In this document: positions 4,301-43,400 of the stretch, in pieces
Position numbering within the stretch: the stretch's first letter is position 1
Layout: every line of letters begins with the position of its first letter
Assembly: GCA_916610825.1 (NCBI GenBank)
Contig: OU744449.1
Span: 28,465,728-28,529,727 of the forward strand
Direction of reading: 5' to 3'
DNA length: 64,000 nt
From: Haliclystus octoradiatus
Lineage: Eukaryota; Cnidaria; Staurozoa; Stauromedusae; Haliclystidae
Translations under genes and position numbers: made by a program
Notes under the pieces: generated by a model
What the model was told of the DNA's origin: nothing
What the model saw: the letters and a program-made list of their open reading frames with translations, nothing else
Databases searched by the model: none

Positions 4301-6297
4301 ATCATGCAAAGAAAAATCAAATCAAATCAAATTCAAAAAAAGTAAATCAATCCAATCGAATGATATAAAAATCAGATCAAATAAAAAAAATCGACTTCAA
4401 TCAAATAAAATAAATTATAACAATATCCAAATAATATAATAATATAAAGAAAAATTATTAAAGCAATTTGTTTGCTATTTATCCCAAAAAATTGTTTTTC
4501 CTCCTGCAAAGAAGGCAAACATGCATTAAAACCCTAATCATATTGAAAAACAGGATTTCTGCAAACCTTTTCTCGATGCATTCCACCCCCAATTCCAAAG
4601 TATCTGGAATATCTCTCTTCTCGCTTTGAAAGAGGATAATCATAGGCGTATCATATTTGGTGAAAATCATGCATTTCCTGTTGTCATCAGATAATTTAAG
4701 CAGAAAATGCATAAGCATATTGGAATTTCCCAAAATCAGACTGGGCCTACACTACCTCCCCCCATTAAGCATTAAACATGGCATTAAGCATTGTCTGTTG
4801 ACTTATTTCATTATGTAGTAGTATAGTAGTAGTAGTAGTAGTATAGACATTCACATTATAGGAATGTGCTGTCCCATTTCATTATGTGAAGAGACAAGAA
4901 TTCATTATCGCAATGCATGTTGGGCAGTTTCCCGTTGTCATATATATAGTAACGTAGACGGTGTCGCCCTACCGAAGGCACCCAAACAAACAACTCCTCT
5001 ATTTCTAGATGAATGGCTTTTTTCGCTGAGAGCAATGATTTTAAACGCCCTTTGTTGATCTCAGCCGTGACACTGCAGATCAATTTCAACAGATTTCATG
5101 GCAGATAGGTCTCGATTGTCAATGCACAACGATGCGCCGCAGCTATTCACAATGCAATTCCCTCTGGACCATTCCATCCGCCATCCTCAGATGGTACTCA
5201 TTTGATGTTTCTGATGAAGTCAAGGCTGAGTTGACCTTCGGGGGATTGTTGTTGGGCTGTTGTCATACTCTACTGACAATCAATATATCCTCTGAGCAGA
5301 AAATATTAATTATGTGAACAATTTTGAATACTGTTCAGCTGCATTAGGCCTACAATAACTGAAGCAGCTTAGCTAGCTAGTTGGCAGTTAGCTAGTTGGC
5401 AGTGTGATTATCCCTTCCAAGGATTGTCTAGGTAAGGATATCACAACATGGCAAGAAAAAGTTGCATAAATTATGTATAGGCCGAAGTATGTAGGCTGCA
5501 ATGATTAATAAATTACCTTAACATTTATAATAGAAAAGGAAGCAACAGGATGATGAGACAGAAAAATCTGACAGAACAGAAGCAGAAAAAGTTGAAAGGT
5601 TTTTGAAGATGGAAAAGAGCATAGCAACAAAAGCAAGCACGGCTTTCAAACAAAAGAACGACGATGATGCAATCGCTGGTCCATCCAATCAAAACAAAGT
5701 ATCAAATATGAGTAAGTTACATCTAATTAAGGCATCTAAGGCTACGTTTACATGCCTTAAGAAAATGTTTACTGATGTGCAGTAGTTATGAAGGATTTTG
5801 TAGTTTGTATAAACTTTTTAATGTTGTTTGTTACATTTTTTTATGCAGCTCATGAGACCAAAAAGAAGCTTCCAAGTTTTTGGATTCCATCGTTGACACC
5901 ACAAGCCAAAGCCACACTAATTGAAAAACCAACCATGAAAACGTACTGTCCAATGAGTGATAAACAGTTAAGAATGAAAGATCTGACACATGTTCATTTC
6001 ACACCTGTCCCTGATAAAACAGGAAAGCCTGATGTAGCAAAAGAGATCCGCTACATGTGCCCTGTTACTCATGATGTCCTTGGCAATCACGTCCCCTGCG
6101 CTGTCTTGAGACCATCTGGACATGTCGTAACAATGGACTGTGTCGAAAAGATAATCAAATTAGATTGGAAATGTCCGCTAACAGGGCTGCCGTTGAAAGA
6201 AAAAGATATTATTCAGATGCAAAGGGGAGGCACAGGATTTGCTGCGTCAGGACAACAACTGTTTGCCAAGAAATACAGACCTAGTATGATGACATGA
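1342..6297 (+). CDS. NOSIP: Nitric oxide synthase-interacting protein (NOSIP), U-box family E3 ligase
   Basis: Three coding exons (1342-1614, 5534-5711, 5849-6297) join in phase to give 299 residues; human NOSIP has 301. The N-terminus MTRHGKNCTAGAVYTYHEKK matches the vertebrate protein almost exactly and fixes the start. The first U-box half follows (DFDCCSLTLQPC, then TPDGHLYD). A Lys/Gln-rich linker leads to LPSFWIPSLTP and the C-terminal half (YMCPVTHDVLGNHVPCAVLRPSG) ending in QRGGTGFAASG. In vertebrates NOSIP binds eNOS and nNOS, affects their location, and acts as a ubiquitin ligase; that role is carried over from the family. Intron 1 is 3.9 kb and filled with transposon sequence, while intron 2 is only 137 bp. 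The gene converges on ACSF2, with 278 bp between stop codons, so the 3' UTRs may overlap. Confidence 0.96.
1701..3887. mobile_element. MULE-like non-autonomous DNA transposon with long terminal inverted repeats
   Basis: The ends are inverted repeats of about 185 bp (1701 to about 1885 and about 3703-3887), both starting CGGCAGGTCTTAAACGCGG and matching closely throughout. The element is flanked by a perfect 9-bp direct repeat GCCTAAAGA (1692-1700 and 3888-3896). Long inverted repeats plus a 9-bp target duplication are the hallmark of Mutator-like elements. No transposase frame is visible. A second element (2010-3254) is nested inside. It sits in NOSIP intron 1. Confidence 0.8.
2010..3254. mobile_element. 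Nested DNA transposon with about 24-bp terminal inverted repeats
   Basis: The left end GGGGAGAGCGGGGTGAAATG and the reverse complement of the right end, GGGGAGAGCGGGGTGAATTG, differ at one base; the match continues a few bases inward. TA sits at both borders. Outside that, an 18-19 bp near-perfect direct repeat (tttataaatggagtgtata, about 1985-2003, and its copy with one base missing at about 3259-3276) flanks it. No transposase frame was seen. It interrupts the MULE-like element. Confidence 0.7.
3952..4455 (+). repeat. Two-copy tandem duplication, period about 251 bp
   Basis: The unit begins aaaaatagctccgctacgct at about 3952 and again at about 4203 and is repeated with few differences. Each copy has an AT-rich body of degenerate aatcaaatcaaat motifs. 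It lies just beyond the right end of the MULE-like element in NOSIP intron 1. Confidence 0.8.
4949..5247 (-). mobile_element. tRNA-derived SINE, truncated copy in reverse orientation
   Basis: This is the reverse complement of the SINE seen at 7698, 10543 and 35473: tail gacggtgtcgccctaccgaa, body, then the last bases of the tRNA head (cgggggatt) before the match stops. Most of the tRNA head is missing, as expected for 5' truncation during reverse transcription. It lies in NOSIP intron 1. Confidence 0.85.
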
Positions 6298-6575
6298 GAT
6301 TTAATTGTTGTGTAAATTTATTATGTAAATATATATATATATATTATTATATTGCATTTCTTTATTAACAATTCGCAAATGCCAATTGTAATCTGATTGG
6401 GAGATTAATATTGTTTGTTTTGCAATGTAAAAATCAATTTTTAAAAAATTTGTAAATCATCTAATCTGTTTGTTATTTGTTTTACAAAATGCAAATGTAT
6501 TCACATTCAAACTACACAAATAATTTTACTTTGTTACATTTAAAATATTTGAAAATATCCTAATTATTATTTCTT

Positions 6576-9500
6576 TCATTTTTCTGCAGCATTTTTCTCT
6601 AGTTCATCGGTCATCATTTGACGGATTACAAATTTTTTCACCTATATAATTATGAAATACAAAATAACAGCTCTATATTAGTGTACGTATCATAATTGGG
6701 AAGCATATGTAAGATGTAATGCAGAGATTAGTAGGCTATTATCCTTTCCTTTATACGGCACTTGTACTCTTTTTCTAGAGAAGGGGGGCTAAGCACTCAG
6801 AACAATCACCGTAAACGCCCATTACTGATGCCAGCTGCGACACTTCAGATCAATTTCAACAAATGTGGTTATACCGCAGTTCTTTGTAAAGTAGTACCAT
6901 ATAATTGGCTATTACAAGAAGTTCCTTACAGTGAAACCTGTACTTAACAGGGCCCAGTTATGTAATGAAAATTGAACGCTATGCATGTGGCCTCAATCAA
7001 TAGAAAATGCTATTTTAAATATTGCCATAGTGACAATACCCCTATAGACAGGTGGGTGTTGAAGCTGAGAATAAATAAAGGAAATCAAATCCACAGAAAT
7101 ATCCACTGCATCATGTAGAATCACTGACTAAATACCTCACCTTTCCGCTAACAGTCAACGGGTAAGAATCTACAAACTTGAAGTAACGAGGAATTTTAAA
7201 ATGGGCAATCTGTAAGAATCAATTTCAAGAATATGTATTATGACGCTGGATTATGACATTATAACGAAAACAGAAGAACGCAATAAGAAATTGTATGCAT
7301 TTTTGTTACCTTTCCTTTGCAAAATTTTTTGATTTCTTCAACTGTACATTCCTGTTTACTCTTCAGCCTTCAAAATAAATAGAATCCACATTATTGTTAA
7401 GAACAGTGCAGCAGTGCAGTGCTTATCAACTCATAAATAAACAAACAACAGAATGAGTATGTAATAATCTTGATTAAACAATGGACCCACTTGTCACTTA
7501 TTCACATTAATTATGAAACATGTAATGTTGTAGGCTATATGCAGTAGAAACGGTCGATAACGACAGCTCTAGGGAACTTTCAAAATGTATAATTGTGCAT
7601 TATAGGCAATTGCTGCTATAGCTAATTATTCATGAGAGACAATAATCCGTTGTAAAAGGTGACGTTATAAACAGTTCCTACTGTTCCATAAGCGTGAAGG
7701 GGGTGATTAGCTCAGTTGGAAGAGCAACCGAACTTCAGATCGTATCATATCTGATCGACTGTGGTTCAAATCCCCCTCAGGTCAACTCAGCCTTGACTTT
7801 ATCTGAAACATCAAATGAGTACCATCTAAGGATGGCGAATGGAATGGTCCAGAGGGAATTGCATTGTGAGTAGCTGCGGCGCATCGTTGCGCATTGACAA
7901 TCAAGGCCTATCTGCCATGAAATCTGTTGAAATTGATCTGCAGTGTCGCGGCTGAGATCTAAGGAGCGTTTAACATCATTGCTCTTAGCGAAAAAAGCCA
8001 CCCCTCTAGAAATAGAGGGGTGGTACGGGTGCCTTTGGTAGGGCGACACCGTCCACATTACATTTTTTTTCCATAAGCATAAAGTTCTAAACAAGGAGAT
8101 TACCTGATCCACGCGCACAGCTCCTCCCCCATCCTTTCATCTGGAACACCGACAACCTACAAGTAGACAAGCATCATTAATCTTAATGTTCCATCCCTGT
8201 ATTTACGAGACTAAATATTTTTATGACAAACATACAATAGAATGACTCTGAATATAATATTTTGACTCTCATTCTATAAATTCTCTGAGTACTTTCATTG
8301 GGCACTATACCAAGAACTGGTGTGTGTAATAAATCCCATTATTATTATTATTATATTATTATAATGACAAATATACATACATACATACTGCAGCGAAAAA
8401 GAAAATGATTGATAATTAATTTACCTGCACATCCTCAATTTTAGGGTGTTGATAAAGGAATTCTTCAACTTCACGAGGGAAAATATTAACGCCTCCCCTA
8501 ATAACCAAATCCTGAAAAATAAGAAAATAGTGCAATAAATCATTTGTGGAAGATACAATAAATAAAGTCAACAAACTCAACAATGTTTTAAAGCGTCTAA
8601 ATTTTGGATTGCAAACTCCTATAGCGTACGTAATCATTAATCAATCACTCCACTGGTAAATAATATTGTAAATAATATTGTAAATAATATTGTAAATAAT
8701 ATTGTAAATAATATTGCAAATAATATTGTAAATAATAGCATATATCAGGAGTCAGCCATGTTTCTGATGTTCCAGTTGTGCAAGCAATGGCATGGAAAGT
8801 TACTGAGACATATATCAAGGATAAACTCAAAAACGTAACTACAACATGGTTGTCCATGGTTACCTTTAGGCGTCCAATGATTTTACAGCAATGATCTTCA
8901 TCTATGACAGCCAGATCACTAGATAAAAAATTATTCAAAAATTATTTTACATAAAGAAGAAAATTCACAATCTGAATCTTGCGTAAAATCTCACCCAGTG
9001 TGAAACCATCTGGCGTCATCGATGGCTTCTTTTGTCTTTATTTCGTCCTGCCAGTAGCCTTGCATAACGATATGACCACGGAAACAAATCTCGCCTGGTG
9101 TGTTGACCGGAACAATCTCACCATCTTGGTCTATCACTTTTGCCTGAAGACATTCAAATGGATCATCAAAATAAAACTGCATTGAGCTTAACGTTCATTT
9201 AACAGATAACATGGCCAGTCATGTGACGTTACAAGTGAGCCATCGACTGATTCATCAAGATAAAATGTAGGTCTAATATTTCAGTATGTAAAATTTGTCA
9301 TTCGTAAAATAGGCTAGCTGCTTCTAATAATATAAATGTCCATTAATAATATCCTATATATTTAGTATCCAATATTATTAGATAATAATATTATCTAATA
9401 ATATCCATTTCAATGTTCAATCTTTTGATAAATTAGCAAAGAGTGAGTTACTTATATTTACCTGGTACTGAATCAATATGATGGCAGTACACATTACGAA

Positions 9501-12500
9501 TTATCAAAATCTGAAAACCTACTGAAAAACTACTGAAAACATACAGAATTGGGCATTTTTCAGTAGCATTCGATCTAGATTTAAGTGTCTGGTTCAGTGT
9601 ATCCAAGATTCATGGTATAACCAGGGACGTTCCTAGTATGGGGGTATTAGGGGAATGATACCTCCCCCTCACGACTTGGTCAGTCGGCAAATCTTCCTTG
9701 GATTGTTTCTAGTCGGCAAAAGAGGGAAGAAATGGCAAAGGAATATTATGGTGTTTGTTTTCTAAGAGTAGAAGAAAGAGAATTCTTGTCCATTTATTCA
9801 TGTTCACACAAATCATGAATGCTATATAGGCTATATAGAGACAATTATCTTCAACTTAAAGAGAAGAGGTGTTTGAAACTTAAAGAGGTGTTTGAAGGGA
9901 ACCAGACTAGAGAAATTTTGGGCCCCATGGGGTCCTTTGAAAACAGAAAATTGTACTTGCTCCTGTCAGAATGTATTCCAATGATGACTTGAGGTCCGTA
10001 TAAAATTTAAACACGCGTTGCAAAACTTTGTGTGGCAGATTCAACTCGGGATACTGCACCTTAAAGTTGCTTCCAATTTACGGTGACATATCCATGTCAG
10101 ACTCCGGTGAGGTCAGCAAATTTATTGCTCGACACCCCCCTGAAAAATTGTACAGCTATCGGGACGGCCCTGGATATAACCATGTGTCACATAGTATAAA
10201 TAAACCAATCATAAAACGTGAAAAAACATTAAAGACTAATTAGGCTGAATACCTCTACATGTTCAATTGGTCTCCCAATTGACGATACTCTGATGTTGAT
10301 TGGATCGTTCCTCATTGTCTGGTTTGTGACCGGGCTAGTTTCAGTCAAACCGTAACAAATCTATAAAACATGAAAAGTCTCAATAGGCGGCTGACACAGA
10401 TTCATGGTGGAAATAGATCGATGAGGAGCACATCTTACTGTCATCTCTTTACAGTTCATTTTATCAATCACTTGCTTCATCACTTCTTCTGGGCAAGGAG
10501 AACCAGCCATTATTCCTACAACATATGCAGGTCTCATTTACATAGGATTAGCTCAGATGGCAGAGCAACCGAACTTCAGATCGGATCATATCTGATCGAC
10601 CGTGGTTCAAATCCCCCTAAGGTCAACTCAGCCTTGACTTTATCTGAAACATCAAATGAGTACCATCTGAAGATGGCGGATGGAATGGTCCAGAGGGAAT
10701 TGCATTGTGAGTAGCTGCGGCGCATCGTTGCGCATTGACAATCAAGACCTATCTGCCATGAAATCTGTTGAAATTGATCTGCAGTGTCGCGGCTGAGATC
10801 AACAAAGAGCGTTTAAAAATCATTGCTCTCAGTGAAAAAAGCCACTCATCTAGAAATAGAGGAGTGGTACGGGTGCCTTCCGTAGGGCGACACCGTCTAC
10901 ATTACTTTACTTATTCACTGATGACATTGATTTTTCACATGTTTAATTTTGTTCACAAAGGAAATGTTTTAATAAATTTGTTTGCCCTGGCCGAGCCCAA
11001 ATGATCTTTAATTTTCAAACAATCGGTGATATAAATGAAAATATGAGCCTTCTGCTAATTGGTCGATAATGACGTAGCTTGACTCAGGATTGGGCTTGAT
11101 TGACTAATTGTCACATCCTCAAAATATCATCAATGTTGGTACATATAAAATCAATTTGCTCAGGGCTTTAATGTATGTTTTACAATCTAGTAGTGAGATC
11201 AGTTGAGTTTAGAAATCTTACAATGATCATTCTTTTGATCATATTGTTGGTCAGAAACCAAACAACAACAACAACAACAACGTAGCCTACCTGTGCGAAG
11301 ACTGTTCAAATCAAATTGATTGAAGTTGTCATGGTGAAGCATATCAATAAACATGGTAGGAGTGCCGTAAACAGAAGTACATCTAAAACAAACAAATATT
11401 TCAATAACTGTATTTCTAAAATGGTAGATAAGAATTTGATTGGATGGGGGTGGCATTTACTTTTCTTGGTGAATTGATTCCAGTGAATTTCCTGCGTTGA
11501 ATCCTCTGGCAGGGAAGACACTTGTGACACCAAAATTAACAGTGCAAAGACTGAATGGAAGGAAAAACAAATCATTATTCCATTGATATCAAGAGGCATT
11601 GTGAATTCGCAACACACAACAACAACATACCTGCCGAGAACCATGCCAAAACAATGATACAGAGGAACTGGTATACAGATCCGCGATGCCTGGAATTAAT
11701 AAACAGCATACTCAAAGTTGGTTCTGGAAATTTGTTTAATTTGCACAAGAAATAACAACAACTGACCTCTTGATCATATCCTAAATTTCTTCCAACAATT
11801 GCTGCATTATTCAGAAGGTTATAATGAGAGAGAACAGTACCTTTTGGATGCCCTGTGGTTCCCTATTAAAAAAAACACTAACAATTACAAAGTAGCAATC
11901 CGTCAGTCAGATAGATGGTGTCACACGTCAACAACATGTTTTTGTATGCTCAATAAAATGATGATCATGATGAAGTAGAGAATGGGATTACAGATGTGTG
12001 GAAATGGATATGCCTATTTGGAACAATCACTCACACAAAGTAGTGTCACTGACATCAGTGAAATATTTTACATCGAAATTGAACGATTCTTTATTTTAAT
12101 TCATAAGAATTATTCAAATTTGATCTATACCTTAAATAATTCATTTAAGTGCAATCTGTAATTGCCTAGTCATTGCACGGTTTTTATTTTGTTAGTTTGT
12201 CTTGCTTAATAAAGACACTTATATACATTAGATGTATATGTGCATTACGTAGTAGATAGCTTTACCGATGTAAATTGAATATTTATGGGGTCATCAAATT
12301 GTAGCTTTCTTTGCAATGCCTCAACTGCTTGCATATCGGATGTGTTGCCATTGGATATGACATCATCAATACTGTATGTTCCTCTGGAAAGTATATAAAC
12401 ATCTCAAATAAAAAATACTGTCATAGTCGTGAATACTTCTTGCCATAGTTAAAATTAATACTCACTCTTTGTGTTCTCCCTCAGTCATTATGATGTGCGA

Positions 12501-16807: not shown

Positions 16808-23254
<6,447 letters not shown>

Positions 23255-25809: not shown

Positions 25810-28213
25810 GTTTCTAGGAACAGTTTGTGAATGTTCATAAAGTCATAAGGTGTGAGGTATTTGTGAATGTCCATAAAAGTTCATGAACTGTTTACACGGT
25901 GTGAGGTGTTTGTTAATGTTCATAATCTCATGAACTGTTTCTAAGATGTGAGGTATTTGTGGATGTTCATAATCTCATGAACTGTTTCTAAGATGTGAGG
26001 TGTTTGTGAATGTTCATAATCTCATGAACTGTTTCTAAGATGTGAGGTGTTTGTGAATGTTCATAATCTCATGAACTGTTTCTAAGATGTGAGGTGTTTG
26101 TGAATGTTCATAATCTCACGAACTGTTTCTAAGATGTGAGGTGTTTGTGAATGTTCATAATCTCATGAACTGTTTCTAAGATGTGAGGTGTTTGTGAATG
26201 TTCATAATCTCATGAACTGTTTACAAGGTGTGAGGTGTTTGTGAATGTTCATAATCTCATGAACTGTTTCTAAGATGTGAGGTGTTTGTGAATGTTCATA
26301 ATCTCATGAACTGTTTACAAGATGTGAGGTGTTTGTTAATGTTCATAATCTCATGAACTGTTTCTAAGATGTGAGGTGTTTGTGAAGGTTCATAATCTCA
26401 TGAACTGTTTCTAAGATGTGAGGTGTTTGTGAATGTTCATAATCTCATGAACTGTTTCTAAGATGTGAGGTGTTTGTGAATGTTCATAATCTCATGAACT
26501 GTTTCTAAGATGTGAGGTGTTTGTGAATGTTCATAATCTCACGAACTGTTTCTAAGATGTGAGGTGTTTGTGAATGTTCATAAAGTTCATAAACTGTTTA
26601 CAAGGTGTGAGGTGTTTATGAATGTTCATAATCTCATGAACTGTTTACAAGGTGTGAGGTGTTTATGAAAGTTCATAATCTCATGAACTGTTTCTAGCAT
26701 GTGAGGTGTTTGTGAATGTTCATAATATCATGAACTGTTTATAAGGTGTGAGGTTGTGAATGTTCATAAAGTTCATGAACTGTTTATAAGGTGTGAGGTG
26801 TTTATGAATGTTCATAATCTCATGAACTGTTTCTAAGATATGAGGTGTTTGTGAATGTTCATAATCTCATGAACTGTTTACAAGGTGTGAGGTGTTTATG
26901 AATGCTCATAATCTCATGAACTGTTTCTAAGATGTGAGGTGTTTGTGAATGTTCATAAAGTTCATGAACTGTTTACAAGGTGTGAGGTGTTTGTGAATGT
27001 TCATAATCTCATGAATTGTTTCTAAGATGTGAGGTGTTTGTGAATGTTCATAAAGTTCATGAACTGTTTACAAGGTGTGAGGTGTTTGTGAATGTTCATA
27101 ATCTCATGAACTGTTTCTAAGATGTGAGGAGTTTGTGAATGTTCATAAAGTTCATGAACTGTTTACAAGGTGTGAGGTGTTTGTGAATGTTCATAATCTC
27201 ATGAATTGTTTCTAAGATGTGAGGTGTTTGTGAATGTTCATAATCTCATGAACTGTTTCTAAGATGTGAGGTGTTTGTGAATGTTCATAATCTCATGAAC
27301 TGATTCTAAGATGTGACGTGTTTGTGAATGTTCATAATCTCATGAACTGTTTCTAAGATGTGAGGTGTTTGTGAATGTTCATAATCTCATGAACTGTTTC
27401 TAAGATGTGAGGTGTTTGTGAATGTTCATAATCTCATGAACTGTTTACAAGGTGTGAGGTGTTTGTTAATGTTCATAAAGTTCATGAACTGTTTACAAGG
27501 TGTGAGGTGTTTGTTAATGTTCATAATCTCATGAACTGTTTACAAGGTGTGAGGTGTTTGTTAATGTTCATAATCTCATGAACTGTTTATAAGATGTGAG
27601 GTGTTTGTGAATGTTCATAATCTCATGAACTGTTTACAAGGTGTGAGGTGTTTATGAATGTTCATAATCTCATGAACTGTTTCTAAGATGTGAGGTGTTT
27701 GTGAATGTTCATAAAGTTCATGAACTGTTTACAAGGTGTGAGGTGTTTGTGAATGTTCATAATCTCATGAATTGTTTCTAAGATGTGAGGTGTTTGTGAA
27801 TGTTCATAATCTCATGAACTGTTTCTAAGATGTGAGGTGTTTGTGAATGTTCATAATCTCATGAACTGATTCTAAGATGTGACGTGTTTGTGAATGTTCA
27901 TAATCTCATGAACTGTTTCTAAGATGTGAGGTGTTTGTGAATGTTCATAATCTCATGAACTGTTTCTAAGATGTGAGGTGTTTGTGAATGTTCATAATCT
28001 CATGAACTGTTTACAAGGTGTGAGGTGTTTGTTAATGTTCATAAAGTTCATGAACTGTTTACAAGGTGTGAGGTGTTTGTTAATGTTCATAATCTCATGA
28101 ACTGTTTACAAGGTGTGAGGTGTTTGTTAATGTTCATAATCTCATGAACTGTTTATAAGATGTGAGGTGTTTGTGAATGTTCATAATCTCATGAACTGTT
28201 TCCAAGGTGTGAG
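25810..28213 (+). repeat. 47-bp minisatellite array, about 50 units
   Basis: The unit is about 47 bp, running through gatgtgaggtgtttgtgaat and gttcataatctcatgaac to tgtttctaa. Each unit holds the dyad GTTCAT-aatctc-ATGAAC. Units with cataaagttcatgaac are one base longer and alternate irregularly. Roughly 27184-27610 is repeated, essentially unchanged, 566 bp downstream (27750-28176), including the private variants ctgattctaag and gtgacgtg. The first two or three units are the most diverged. Confidence 0.95.
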
Positions 28214-35472: not shown

Positions 35473-35842
35473 AGGGAGGATTAGCTCAGATGGCAGAGCA
35501 ACCGAACTTCAGATCGGATCATATCTGATCGACTATGGTTCAAATCCCCCGAAGGTCAACTCAGCCTTGACTTTATCTGAAACATCAAATGAGTACCATC
35601 TAAGGATGGCGGATGGAATGGTCCAGAGGGAATTGCATTGTGAGTAGCTGCGGCGCATCGTAGCACATTGACAATCGAGACCTATCTACCATGAAATCTG
35701 TTGAAATTGATCTGCAGTGCCGCGGCTGAGATCAGTAAAGAGCTTTTAAAATCATTGCTCTCAGCGAAAAAAGCCACTTATCTAGAAATAGAGTGGTACG
35801 GGTGCCTTCGGTACTGCGACACTGTCTAGATTACTTACTTTT
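35473..35842 (+). mobile_element. tRNA-derived SINE, full-length copy
   Basis: A box TTAGCTCAGATGG and the tRNA-like head are followed by the shared body and the tail cgacactgtctagattactt. It has slightly more substitutions than the 7698 and 10543 copies. It is intergenic, between UBALD and the Ig-Frizzled gene. Confidence 0.9.
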
Positions 35843-36116
35843 ATGTATAGCCCCCTTGTTTGGTCATGTCTCCAACACGAATTATGCTAATAGCAATATT
35901 CATATTGCAATAGTTGTATCTGATTCGAACAGCGGAGCATACGGGATACTTATCAGTTGTTACTGATCGTTATTCAGATGAGGTGGGCGGACGAGTATTA
36001 AATCAAATTCTAGGAAAGGGGACATTTTTGGAACTTAGATTTGGTCAATAGTTTGCTTGGAAGTGCATTCAGTAAATTCTGGTCAACATAGAAATCATTT
36101 ATTGAAGTCGATTTAA

Positions 36117-39100
36117 TTAAGGGTTGTATTTTATAAAGGCTGGTGCAATTTCACTCTTTTGGGGAACAAATTTGAGGCAAAAAGTAGGAAAGATCAATAC
36201 CGAAGAAGAGACGTTTCCATCTGGGAATAACCGATAGCGGATTCGCATTTGGCCCCAGGCTTCTAATTGACTAACCTCTTCGTGTGTTTCATTCAATTGA
36301 AAACGAGGCGTTATAAATTCCAACTCAAGAGACGCGTAATCTTCCGTTTGTGTTAACTTTGTCTCAACATTTGCATTCGCACCAACAAACGCATTAGAAA
36401 GGGAACACATGAGACTTGACACATTGCTGCTAGATCTGCCATTGCTACATGGGTCGAATGTAGAACTAGATAAACTCAGTTGCAGGATGCTTCGTGATTG
36501 GCTAACTTGTTCAGTTGTACCCATTCCGTTAATATGAGAATATGACATCACTACCTGGACAAAACAACAACAAATCAAATTACTTCACAGAATCAGTCAC
36601 ATCGAAGCTCGAGGAGAAAGATAGGACCAGACAAATTCTTTTATTTTAAATTGTTCCTAAATGGAGGTTCCTCCGTGTCAATCGAATTGAGATTGGAGTT
36701 GATTCACTAATCTCACAATAACACACAATTATAATGTGCAGTGTGAAATACCTCGTCAAAGGAAGCAGCGTTGAGAACATCATTATGCATCAACATCGGG
36801 TTGTTGATGTTATTGAAAATAGTTGAGATGAATCCAAAAACTTTTCTTTCTCCTTTTAACTGAACGGACATCCAGTAGCGACCCTCTTTACCAATTTGAA
36901 ATGAAAAGGCGGCTGGAGCGAGATCTTTGTGTAATGAATCGGTGTGAAAATTGAGCAATTGAATGACGTTATTCCTAGCAACAGCATGTAGTTTCGGTCT
37001 GGTCAGTTTTATCCGTTTCAAGTTGTCTGATGTTGCAATTAGAATGTCATGTTTATGGCGTTGTGGCGAATCAAGATCGAACACGGTGAAGAGTGATGCC
37101 AGATTTAAAGTAGAAGGGGATTCCCCAGAGATAAACACGTCCCCATTAGGATCACTCTGAAGCTCAACATTAAACACACAGCCACATAGGTCGAACTGGC
37201 CTGCAGCAATAATCATTGATTCTTGTTTGTCAAGTTTAAGATGGAACGTAACGTTTTTAACCAGAAGTCTTTCACCAATCCATAAACGACGCAAAGAGCC
37301 TATGTAAAGATACACTACATCAGCAGGGTCAACGGAGAAGACAGAAGGAGCATTCGCAAACAAAACAGTCGGTAGATTTACGCCAGGGAATATATACTCG
37401 TCTGGATTGTTTGGTAAAATCCCCAGGAGAGGGACAGGAACAGAGAAACACTTGGTACCATCCAACAGTAGCGCTGTTTGAGAGGTAACGGATGACAAAC
37501 TACGTAAATCTAACTCCAAATTAAGTCTCGAAATGAACATAGTCTCGGTTTGAGATACTGCCTCCCATTGAGTTTTGTTTTGACTGTGGCATCGATCAGA
37601 GTGAATATCACGTGATATATCAGTTGACGAATCATGATTACCTACGACAAAAAAAAACAATTAATTTTTGTGTCCAAATTTTAACCGAGGCATATCTTAA
37701 TCTTAATCTATATGGCACATACTTACTGTAACTGAAGTATTGCATCAGACAAGCATCATTTTGACTTTTATCCCGTCCTGTTATAGAATAAGAAGATACT
37801 TCGGTTAGCGGGGCGCTGATCACAAAGAGGGCGGTTTGTATGTCTGATGAAAGCAGAGTCTCACCCGGAATGTATAGTCTTGCGCATCGCCGATTATAAG
37901 GGTCATCAATCGTTGACATCGTAGAACATTCTAGATCCTCCATTTTCATAACACCATATCGTCGCAATGAGACGATTGAGTTGTAGCATATACTCGTTTT
38001 TATTTTTTCGCAATGTTCACGGCATAAACGTAAAGCAGAGAACCGAGATTGTAGCGGGGGAAACGCTTGCAGACAAATCAATCGCTGGATGACAGAACGA
38101 CATTCACGTAGCACCAATCTATCCACCACATCGAAATGAGACTTAACTACAGCCTCCATCTCACTCTGGTTCTTCCCAATCCGACGATAGATACTGAGTG
38201 CGTTGTTCATGTTATCTTGACAGATTTGGCCAGTGTAGATTTCTTTCCTGAAAACTATCGAATTCATGGATTGACTGCGACGGAAGTTGCCAGCTGAATC
38301 GTAAAAAAGATGAAACGATAAGTAATATTTTATAGGATAGGAGGATAAGTTCAAACATTGTTCTATGCTCTGTCTTCTACGCTGTCTGTAAATATATTAT
38401 GTGACGGTGTGTGTGTATGAAGAAGGCTGAAACGTGAACAATCACTACAATCCAGTCTGTCTCTAGACTCTATTGTATCCGCTATCCCCGTTACCCCCTC
38501 GTCATCGACAAACCCAAAAACATTAATGATGATATATTACGCGGTGGGGCGCATGTCATGTCCCCCACAGAGACACAATCACGTGTTGCAGAGACCCAGT
38601 GGATCACGCCACACACATTGATAGATTCACTACATTAATTAGTAATGGGTATTAAATAACCAAAGCTTACCTTTGATTTTCAATTCCACAAATGACGATC
38701 GATACGAAACACCGCGCGTAGTTGCAACGCATGCGTACATCCCTTCATCATTGCGTTGGACAGATTTAATGATAAGGCGTTGTGAATAATTACGTCGTTT
38801 GACCAGTAGATGACTATTTCGTAAAAATTGATTACTCTTCAGCCATACAAACGTAATATTTTGGTTGTCATCTTCTCTTGTACGGAAGCGACACCTCACG
38901 ACGAGTCTCTCTCCCGTGGTTACGTAGTCATCGTTAGGAGTGATATGGATGGAAACGAGACCTACATAGACAAGCAGAACACAAATAATAAATGTAAATC
39001 ACGTGGTCTTCAAAAGGAGCATTTAATCACAGGTAGGAAGCGAAACAACATTCGATATGCTCTCAATTATTTTCTTTATATATAGTTCAAAACGCATTGT

Positions 39101-39634
39101 TTAAATCAAATTCACAGCTTTGCTCAAGGTGGCTGCCTCTCCTTTCTACATCAATGAGAGTCAAGTTCAGTCAAAAAGATAAAAAACCTTCTCTTGACAA
39201 CTATCAAAACAATCTCAAAACCAATATGTTCTTCCTTTCTTTTACCTTATTGGATTGATAGAAAACGAGGAACTCTCTCGCGCAAATTGCTAAGGAGTGA
39301 TGTCATTAAATGCACGTGAATATTCTAATGTGCTGCTAAAGATGAACACCCATAAAAGGTACGCTGCATATTATATGAGAAAATAATAACTACAGAAACG
39401 GTGCAAATGATGAGATCGTTGGTTAATAACTTCAGATTGACTCACCATGTTGATTGGAGTGACCATTAGATGAAGATACAAGACACAAGATGACCTAAAA
39501 TACAGAAAGTGACAAAGAATTTATTAAATTTGAGAAGTACTACCATAACTGCAGTTTGATAAATGCACCTTACATACCAATGCTAAAACTGCTGCCAGGT
39601 TACATTTCATGGTACCGGCACGTAGATCAGGCAT
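36117..39634 (-). CDS. Secreted Ig and Frizzled-CRD domain protein, novel architecture
   Basis: Six phase-consistent exons (39634-39578, 39494-39446, 38961-38671, 38293-37727, 37641-36752, 36554-36117) give 763 residues. A signal peptide (AAVLALVILCLVSSSNG) leads to an Ig domain at about residues 38-130, with RCRF, FVWLKS and DEGMYACVA. A Frizzled-type cysteine-rich domain follows at about residues 145-290: QICQDNM, LRECRSVIQRLICLQAFPP, LRLCREHCEKI, DLEC and RRCARLYIPGE. Ig followed by this CRD, including the RL.IP end, resembles ROR/MuSK receptors. The kringle, transmembrane helix and kinase expected next are absent. Instead about 450 residues follow with several N-glycosylation sites (NVTF, NETH, NVSS) and no recognised domain or hydrophobic helix. 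Wnt binding is an inference from the CRD only. The C-terminal domain is unassigned. Confidence 0.85.
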
Positions 39635-40411
39635 CACCGTGAACTCCTCTTCAAATAGGCAGTTTTATGGATGTATAAATGTGTTATAAATTCGATGGCT
39701 TTGAAATCCACTTGAGAACGACGCCGTGAAACACAACCCGTTAACTTTTAGACTGTCTCTTACGACCACCAATATAATCAGCACCGAAAGGGTAGGTTTA
39801 AACCAGCAAACACTTCACATCAACAACAAGTAACATTACGATACATACAAGCCACATGGTTTCATCACATAACAGCTATGATGAGCATGCGCGTATATTA
39901 GAGGCGGATCTAGATAGATACATCGACCACCCAGACGAGATAAGTTGGCAATCGTTAAAGGGACGGTTTTATGATAAACATTACGGTCTTATTGACAGCT
40001 GTCCCGCCCCAAACACACGAACAATCGTTTTTACATATGCAAGTAGCTACTATCTATCTATAAGGTTAAACAAACCATTATAACAGGCGTAGATTGCTCA
40101 AGTAAACACGTTGGTTATAATATACAATAAATGTAGTCATTAATGGGCGATCACTTGTTCTCTGAAAGAGCCACGTGGTTATCACATCTTAGTACCTTCC
40201 ATTCAACACCAACGTATGCGGTTACAGCCTCACCACACATCTAACAATGTTACATTCACTTATCGTGATCTGGCGGTCCATTCGTTACAATCACTTGTTA
40301 TCAACACATGCCAATCACAGGAACCGTTCTTAATTCATGACGTCATCTTATATATCATCCATCGAATTCTAGTCATGCAGCATGATATTCAAATACAGTA
40401 GCCAATCTCCA
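39635..40411. other. Intergenic stretch between TSEN54 and the Ig-Frizzled gene
   Basis: Both neighbours are on the minus strand; this is TSEN54 3' flank and Ig-Frizzled promoter. A 75-codon plus-strand frame at 39856-40083 shows no homology or splice support. Confidence 0.5.
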
Positions 40412-43400
40412 TTACGCCATGATATCTAGGTCAGACAGTCGAGGATCCAATACGCTGAGGACGGTAATGGCATCGAGACCAACAACGGCATATTTCAAAG
40501 GGGTATTCTCGCATCTGCGCAACAATTGGAACATCACATTGTCAGAAGGAGGTTCGTCATTATACCTACACGATCACACAAGGAATGATATCAACCAATA
40601 AAGAAACGGTTATCACTGTTACGAGGACAGATTCAACGGCACTATTACTGTTTACCTGTAAACCAGAGTAGCGAATAGAGGTTGGCCAGGCGAGGTTTTT
40701 TTGAATGATTTACTGTTTGCGTTGTAAACATTAAAATGAGGATAGAGAGCGTTTTTGTTTTGATCTTCTATTGTTGACTTTTGAATGATTTGTAGCTTTG
40801 GCATGAGGTCAGCTGTCAATGTAAATCATTCCATTTTACTAGTAACCAATCGCAACAGTAACTTAACAAATTCCAAAAAAAAACATAAGAGGCTGCAAGC
40901 GAATGAATTACCTTGACTAGTTGCATCTTCAGGGTGGACAAGAGGCTGATGAGAACCCCATAATACTGCACCGGCACCAGTGCTTTGATAGTGAGGTTGT
41001 TCGTGAGGTACAATTCGGATTTGGTCACGGGATTGTTTCTCATCCGTTTCTATGGTAACGGATCTGATGGGAATAAGAGATCATTACGTCAACAACGGAT
41101 AAGTTACTCCTTTCCTCATTTTCTTTACCCTTTGCTGGTCATTACCTAGCTGATGTTGGCTTCCAACGTTGCACTCTGTAACCAGCACGGTTGAGATAAG
41201 CAAAGACCTAAAACAACATCCAGTACAAATGATCGTTAGCATGATTGCCATAGAGACACCACAGCGAGGTTATACTATTGTCAGCCTCTAATGGAAGAGG
41301 CAATTTTTCTAAGTTTACTTTTATGAGTCAGTTGTTTCATGAGAGAGAAGGGTATAATTGAACCATTGTTGATATGTTGGTTGAATGTGCAAGAATAAAA
41401 CTCAAAACAAATTTCTAAATAAACTTCTTAAAGCTAGGAGTAACAAATTGTAATAATGTAGCCTACACACTAAAGTATTTCTACTGCTGTACCAAGTCTA
41501 CATTCTGACAATGAGTCTGCGAGCAGGCTGTTTATTGAACAGTAACATGTTTGATAAATCTGATTATATTGTAGAAAATATCTGCCCAGTCGTTGTTATG
41601 ATAGTTTAGTAATAAAAAATAGTTTCTTAATAAAAAATAAAAAAAGGTTCTTAATAATAATAATAACATTTAGGCTAACATCCTAGCAACGTGCGAACAA
41701 AACCATTTTCTGGTATTGTCATTTGAATTTTCTATTGTGAACATTTATTGGCATATATTATTGTAATGCATAACCATAGATAAGTACCATAGATTAATAA
41801 ACTAACATTATTAAATTAACATTGCAACCTTTTTTATTTACATTACATAAATGAAGATCTAATCATTTGTAAAACGTTGCCCTTACTGATTGATTATAGG
41901 GCTCAATGCAAAATATAGCAAAGCTTTACATAATAAATTTGAATAGATTGCCTGATGATCGCCTCGGCGTGAAACTTCAAGTAGCAAACATTACTGTCTA
42001 ATTCTCTGGAGATGTAATTAAGTATTAAGATATTTCCAACTATATTTTACATAGTCGAACAAAATTGCTTTGAGGGACAAAATAATATTTTTGTAGTTTA
42101 ATTAACTACTGTACTCCAAGTGCTGCTACGAAAGAAGGCCACTGAATCCGCCATACTGTATATCTAATATTCACATAATGCGATATCCGCTATTACGCAT
42201 TTTATTTACATTCTAGTGACACCAAACATGGATTAAAGATACTCGCAGCAACAATAACAAAGCTCACACAAAGGTCCTTAAAGAACAAGGCCTTAAAGAA
42301 CAGGGCCCTAAAGAACAACGTCTTTAAGAATAGGGCCTTGAAGATTAGAGCCTTAAGTAACAGGGCATTTAAGAACAGGGCCTTTTAGATCTTCATTATT
42401 TTCACAGTCCAATCCTCAAATTTTTTGTGTGGTCTCTCTCTGATATCTTCAAGATTATAGTGAACATAAACAGATCATATTGAGATTAAGATTGAGATTA
42501 AGATTGAGATTAAGATTAAGATTGAGATTAAGATTGAGATTAAGATTGAGATTAAGAATGCCAGATTCTCATTTATGTTTCTCAAGAGGTGCACCGTGAT
42601 GAGATGATTGTTTAAATTATTGTTTTCGCTGATTGTCGTTTGAGAGGAGCAAGATTGTGTCAACATATCGGATTGGGTGAAATTGCTCTGCGCCATTTTA
42701 CTTCTAGACATGAAAATCTCTGAGTTAAAAAGATGAGCAGAGATAGTACATAGAGAACTTATAAATTATTTATAAAGCAGGGTCCAACAAAAGTAGGAAT
42801 CCTGGAATCCTAAATTCAAACTGTAGGAAAGCTGTACACGCAGTGCGTAACTTTAAACCGTTACCTTGGTTTTACTCAACATTGGGTTCACCCAGATAAT
42901 AATTGATAGCTAACTAATTCTCAAGTATTACGATAATTTTTATGTTTGTTATGGTCAAATATAAACTTGAAAAAAACTGGAGTCACGATTGGTGGATTTG
43001 TACCACGTGCTTAGCAGTTATGTCAAGACAACCCACGAGATTCCATGGCAACCACTAAAAGCGTGCGGGTATAGATCTATACCTGCGCGGTTTTAACCAA
43101 AAAGCTAAAACATGTGCTTTGAAAATGGTGACGAGCTACGACAGATTGAATATATTTCATAAAGTCAAATTAAATTTATACTCTGTAATTGAAAATTCAA
43201 CACTAACAACATCTTGCCTCGTTTACCTAAGAGCAGGTATGATCACTAAAATAACCAAACTTAATCTAGAAACACAGGCCCATTAGAAACACAAATGATA
43301 GACATTTAAGACAACCATTTGGGTAGGCATGCTTACAAACAAATGCCTTACCTTGTAATATTCAAGTGAAGGTAAGCATGGCAGCAGAAGTGAAAATGCC

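Follow-up and report, generated by a model that had tools for sequence, protein, structure and literature searches.

In the ROR receptor tyrosine kinases (ROR1/ROR2, CAM-1, and Nrk), an immunoglobulin (Ig) domain is followed by a cysteine-rich domain (CRD) of the receptor-kinase type. Mammalian MuSK has three Ig domains and, like the protein described here, carries a CRD of this type after Ig and has no kringle. On the Frizzled side of the Wnt pathway, secreted Frizzled-related proteins (sFRPs) are soluble CRD-bearing modulators. To our knowledge, no class of gene-encoded soluble proteins has been described that would be their equivalent for ROR, and none was named in the titles and abstract openings listed by searches of an open-access library. 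Here, we analyzed a gene on the minus strand (39634-36117) of a 64,000-nucleotide stretch, hereafter the window, from the staurozoan Haliclystus octoradiatus (assembly GCA_916610825.1, contig OU744449.1, positions 28,465,728 to 28,529,727). As in ROR, a single Ig domain precedes a ROR/MuSK-type CRD, but the kringle, the kinase, and, judged by hydropathy, the membrane helix are absent, and a 445-residue orphan region takes up the C terminus. The protein differs from MuSK in having one Ig domain instead of three and neither transmembrane segment nor kinase. We tentatively favor the view that this is an intact gene for a secreted glycoprotein, its CRD lacking the C1-C5 disulfide, that would act as a soluble ROR-type decoy or scaffold.

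We rebuilt the gene model with splice sites picked by eye in the sequence. It joins six exons, all in phase, into 2292 nt encoding 763 residues with a TAA stop, and all five introns have GT donors and AG acceptors, in line with the in-phase exons and clean stop of the original prediction. The features of the model are as follows.

39578..39634, minus strand: exon 1, residues 1-19, start codon M1 and most of the signal peptide
39446..39494, minus strand: exon 2, residues 20-35, end of the signal peptide
38671..38961, minus strand: exon 3, residues 36-132, immunoglobulin domain, phase 1-1 exon, with C59, W75, and C113
37727..38293, minus strand: exon 4, residues 133-321, ROR/MuSK-type Frizzled CRD, phase 1-1 exon
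36752..37641, minus strand: exon 5, residues 322-618, first part of the orphan C-terminal region
36117..36554, minus strand: exon 6, residues 619-763, rest of the orphan C-terminal region, TAA stop
36098..36103, minus strand: AATAAA hexamer resembling a poly(A) signal, 13 nt past the stop

To set a chance level for open frames, we simulated 60 windows of 64 kb with the neighbor-base statistics of window 28300-64000 and read them in six frames; the longest stop-free run over all 60 was 198 codons. Exon 4 sits in a stop-free run of 252 codons, above this maximum; the run that holds exon 5 reaches 315 codons, matched in 0 of 60 simulations. These two runs are not due to chance. Length alone proves nothing for exon 3, whose run of 119 codons is under the simulated mean of 142, nor for exon 6, whose 155 codons were equalled in 13 of 60 simulations; hence, the reality of exon 6 rests on phase and splice sites. 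Taken as a whole, the gene is apparently intact.

The highest 19-residue hydropathy window spans residues 7-25 (mean 2.1), a signal-peptide-like stretch encoded by exons 1 and 2, and a second start codon in exon 1, M9 (39610), would give a more typical signal peptide than M1. Beyond the signal peptide, there is no evident membrane helix: the highest 19-residue mean there is 1.48 by hydropathy only, with no dedicated transmembrane or signal-peptide predictor applied. The signal-peptide-like start, the lack of a later hydropathic helix, and the poly(A)-like signal together support a secreted six-exon gene, and we predict that the protein is secreted. Pfam and hydropathy thus agree with the architecture first proposed for the locus: a signal peptide, an Ig domain, a Frizzled-type CRD, and a long tail with no kringle, helix, or kinase. 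The same prediction called the tail rich in N-glycosylation sites; the enrichment is modest, as the tail holds five of the protein's eight NxS/T sites. The Ig domain (residues 39-116) matches Pfam Ig_3 over the cut-off (E 7.4e-10), and at E<=0.001 it matches 55 Protein Data Bank (PDB) sequences, many of them I-set, with carcinoembryonic antigen and neurofascin the best.

The CRD matches Pfam Fz at residues 152-259 (E 6e-8; 33.7 bits against a cut-off of 32.1). Its kind is decided more clearly by the cysteine spacings than by profile or pairwise scores. According to the accessible text of a review, seven residues separate C7 from C8 in receptor kinases and six in Frizzleds (PMC6938638). Our CRD has a C7-C8 spacing of 7 and a C8-C9 spacing of 19, the very values of the ROR encoded in the same genome (7 and 19), whereas the two Frizzled-type CRDs measured, among seven in the genome, have 6 and 16. 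Its best PDB match is ROR2 (E 0.0059), in an alignment that extends beyond the tenth cysteine into the linker. We compared a ROR-like profile, built from seven ROR-type CRDs (six of the same genome plus the ROR2 segment), with a Frizzled profile of the seven Frizzled-type CRDs of the genome: the CRD scores 33.1 bits with the former and 22.1 bits with the latter, and the Frizzled-type CRDs score 9.1-23.8 bits with the ROR-type profile. When a profile of ROR-type relatives was searched against PDB, all five matches at E<=0.1 were to ROR2 or MuSK; the underlying alignment misplaces the last cysteines of its first row, so this result bears on the family more than on the protein itself. Overall, the CRD appears closer to the receptor-kinase (ROR/MuSK) kind than to the Frizzled kind, as had been predicted.

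Eight of the ten CRD cysteines are present (C157, C197, C206, C223, C227, C235, C255, and C269). The position of C1 is taken by K149 and that of C5 by L213, as read by eye from the alignments. The disulfides of the domain are listed as C1-C5, C2-C4, C3-C8, C6-C10, and C7-C9 in the accessible text of the same review (PMC6938638). Because the two missing cysteines are partners, the domain loses one disulfide cleanly, as expected of a CRD kept foldable. This absence of C1-C5 sets it apart from the ten-cysteine CRDs of ROR. The protein was first suggested to be either derived from a ROR-like gene or an independent combination. A joint origin of its Ig domain and CRD from one ROR gene is a possibility only: the CRD leans to ROR, whereas the Ig domain shows no preference for ROR and occupies one exon rather than two as in the ROR of this genome.

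The tail, nearly all of which is encoded by exons 5 and 6, could be placed neither by sequence nor by weak structural models, which makes it a good target for structural work. We found no Pfam family (HMMER filters remove most matches over about 0.1) and no PDB chain that matched its 445 residues at E<=10, and no NCBIfam family matched exons 4, 5, or 6, searched one by one, at the same threshold. The tail thus matches no known family by sequence, as the original prediction stated. Two single-sequence structure predictions of the tail were unsuccessful or weak (pLDDT 34 and 54) and gave no confident fold. The second of them, a model of exon 6 (pLDDT 53.5), is rich in strands, which lends slight support to the beta-like character once proposed for the tail. 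No internal repeats were detected (the observed self-score was equalled or exceeded in 28 of 60 shuffles). Searches of the genome with exons 5 and 6 each returned only the query itself, so the tail exons are single-copy, and exon 5 had no match among viral contigs, as expected. It is possible, though somewhat unlikely, that the tail is a known module whose sequence has diverged beyond recognition, such as a fold that binds lipid or is otherwise rich in beta structure; this would be compatible with any reading of the rest of the gene.

To place the gene among its relatives, we searched the assembly (262 Mb in 33 contigs, the window lying on the contig we call C5) and obtained 15 Fz matches at E<=0.001. 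We assign seven to Frizzled-type CRDs (L001-L007); one (L013) we take to be Smoothened-like from the hydrophobic exons that follow it, one is the present gene, one is ROR, two fall in a likely pseudokinase receptor locus (L011), and L014, L015, and L017 have one each. Exons for the ROR Ig domain, CRD, kringle, hydrophobic segment (recognized by eye), and kinase lie in this order on one strand of contig C2. There, the Ig domain is encoded by two exons (I-set, 7.1e-7 and 0.0047), as is the CRD, unlike the present gene, in which each occupies one exon. The kinase is 53.7% identical to a ROR kinase fragment used for comparison. These exons look like parts of a complete ROR gene. The Ig module of this ROR starts and ends in phase 1 by our by-eye reading, a feature that it shares with the gene in the window. 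With ROR exons present elsewhere, the gene is not a broken copy or the torn-off front of ROR.

Downstream of the gene, across all three frames of the minus strand from 36116 down to 28214, Pfam detected no kringle and no kinase; the sole match, near 28.7 kb, was a C-terminal piece of hydroxyacylglutathione hydrolase (HAGH; E 1.3e-5), which probably belongs to the next gene. When approximate kinase and kringle fragments were used as TBLASTN queries, no hit in the whole window had an E value under 0.5, and none of the kinase fragment had one under 4. None of the kringle matches listed, of which the genome has at least 10, is on C5. The first reading of the locus as something other than a broken receptor gene is supported.

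If the favored reading is right, the CRD, free of membrane and kinase, could engage partners outside the cell: Wnts, Frizzleds, or the animal's complete ROR. The protein would thereby be a soluble competitor, or a scaffold or bridge, in ROR/Frizzled Wnt signaling, while the orphan region might anchor or oligomerize it or supply a second binding surface. Like sFRPs, it has a CRD with no membrane part and, by analogy, would likely act as a soluble modulator. It differs from them in the receptor-kinase kind of its CRD (a C7-C8 spacing of seven, not six, and a Frizzled-profile score 11 bits below the ROR-like one), in the Ig domain in front, and in a tail in which no netrin-like domain was recognized: Pfam gave no such match at E<=10, and the weak structural models did not place the fold. 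The accessible text of work on ROR2 describes its CRD as minimally sufficient for WNT5A signaling and reports that ROR2 retains the ability to signal when the intracellular region is removed (PMC11219042). For the nematode ROR, CAM-1, the ectodomain is reported to bind Wnt in vitro, and Wnt sequestration has been proposed (accessible text of PMC2920835). Should the present protein be expressed and Wnt-active, it would offer a natural test of ROR ectodomain function without a kinase. We consider it unlikely, however, that the lineage went as far as to evolve a secreted ROR-type protein dedicated to a decoy or scaffold role, in which a CRD of the receptor-kinase kind, minus one disulfide, was fused to a new fold and stands beside a complete ROR as sFRPs stand beside Frizzleds.

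Several observations weigh against a soluble ROR-type modulator. The second PDB match of the CRD is Frizzled-3 (E 0.019). With the Frizzled profile, the CRD scores above the other eight ROR-type CRDs (19.1 bits at most), and its pairwise scores are 21.3 bits with ROR2, 16.7 with one Frizzled-type CRD of the genome, and 16.3 with the genome's own ROR. Because of these scores, the CRD appears somewhat intermediate, nearer the Frizzled side than other ROR-type CRDs. Among the PDB matches of the Ig domain are MuSK Ig domains but not ROR; by sequence, the domain resembles the I-set domains of CEACAM, neurofascin, contactin, and Robo in general and is uninformative on ROR ancestry. A codon-usage test separated no exon, those of the Ig domain and CRD included, from non-coding DNA. 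It was trained on seven segments (four large open reading frames at Frizzled-type loci, the kinase exons of ROR and L011, and an open reading frame of 305 codons in the window with no Pfam match), and it is uninformative because exons 5 and 6 score at least as well as those for the Ig domain and CRD and one training segment is itself negative. The ROR2 CRD is described as having no lipid groove and as binding WNT5A less strongly than Frizzled CRDs (PMC11219042), and the CAM-1 study favors a positive rather than a sequestering role in its neurons (PMC2920835), each according to the accessible text. In view of this weaker binding and positive role, a simple Wnt sink should not be taken for granted. 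Finally, the favored reading comes from the sequence of one genome.

A somewhat unlikely alternative keeps the gene real and secreted but its CRD unrelated to Wnt, the product being an adhesion or matrix protein, or a MuSK-like one, that engages another partner through its Ig domain, CRD, or tail. MuSK has binding partners of its own, and the profile of ROR-type relatives matches MuSK as well as ROR2. The strong divergence of the CRD (which shares 17-21% identity with four of the genome's ROR-type CRDs), its missing disulfide, and the general I-set likeness of the Ig domain all fit such a protein. Nothing specific speaks against it beyond the established roles of this kind of CRD in the Wnt pathway, as given in the accessible text of PMC11219042.

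An error in the model and decay of the gene both seem to us less probable still. Exons 5 and 6 could be a separate gene, or the transcript could use other downstream exons; a model read from sequence, an uninformative codon usage, the insignificant length of the exon 6 frame, and a donor-like GTTAGT inside exon 6 leave room for this. We nevertheless regard a 3' error as improbable, since the run around exon 5 was never matched in simulation, exons 4, 5, and 6 join in phase at consensus-like splice sites, the downstream minus strand holds only the HAGH match, and an AATAAA follows the stop. Decay of a receptor that lost its kringle, transmembrane segment, and kinase is very improbable. A copy of the CRD exon has indeed died in this genome: a search with exon 4 found, besides itself, one relic on C2 (10236276-10236452) with frame breaks and stops, which is 75% identical in DNA sequence across an alignment of 108 columns. 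Two CRD cysteines are also gone from the gene in the window. Its exons, however, are all open and in phase, the missing cysteines are disulfide partners, 445 further open residues stand in place of the receptor part, and ROR exons are present elsewhere.

The genome search also yielded observations on other CRD and kringle loci. The kinase exon of the genome's own ROR (L025, C2:1360700-1370699; 4724-5995, minus strand) keeps HRD and has SWFSG where SDFG is expected; it, too, may be a pseudokinase. The receptor locus L011 (C2:14064000-14073999; about 4820-9131, minus strand) comprises an Fz exon, split Ig-like exons, a second Fz exon, a hydrophobic segment, and a domain like that of tyrosine kinases (Pfam 3e-47). 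This last domain has HGD for HRD and no DFG and is likely a pseudokinase; a single gene for both Fz exons is a candidate only. L014 (C7:25385200-25395199) holds, on one strand, a hydrophobic segment together with exons for Fz, kringle, and TSP1 domains, two of each, with three further kringle matches beside it within about 32 kb, up to C7:25419054, and is possibly a tandem family of ROR-like ectodomains. At L034 (C7, around 1801152), a kringle exon lies near the exon of a metalloprotease that we take to be astacin-like, an unusual pairing.

Upstream of the gene, two of the three frames of 39639-42500 gave no Pfam match. Elsewhere in the window, the segments 25846-28213 and 21858-22742 hold repeats: a 47-bp satellite present in about 50 copies, and a simple repeat, rich in TAT, with about 295 units. 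A dispersed element of about 250-370 bp is present in four copies on both strands (4997-5247, 7703-8073, 10544-10917, and 35477-35849); the copies have a core identity of 92-96%, and one lies just downstream of the gene.
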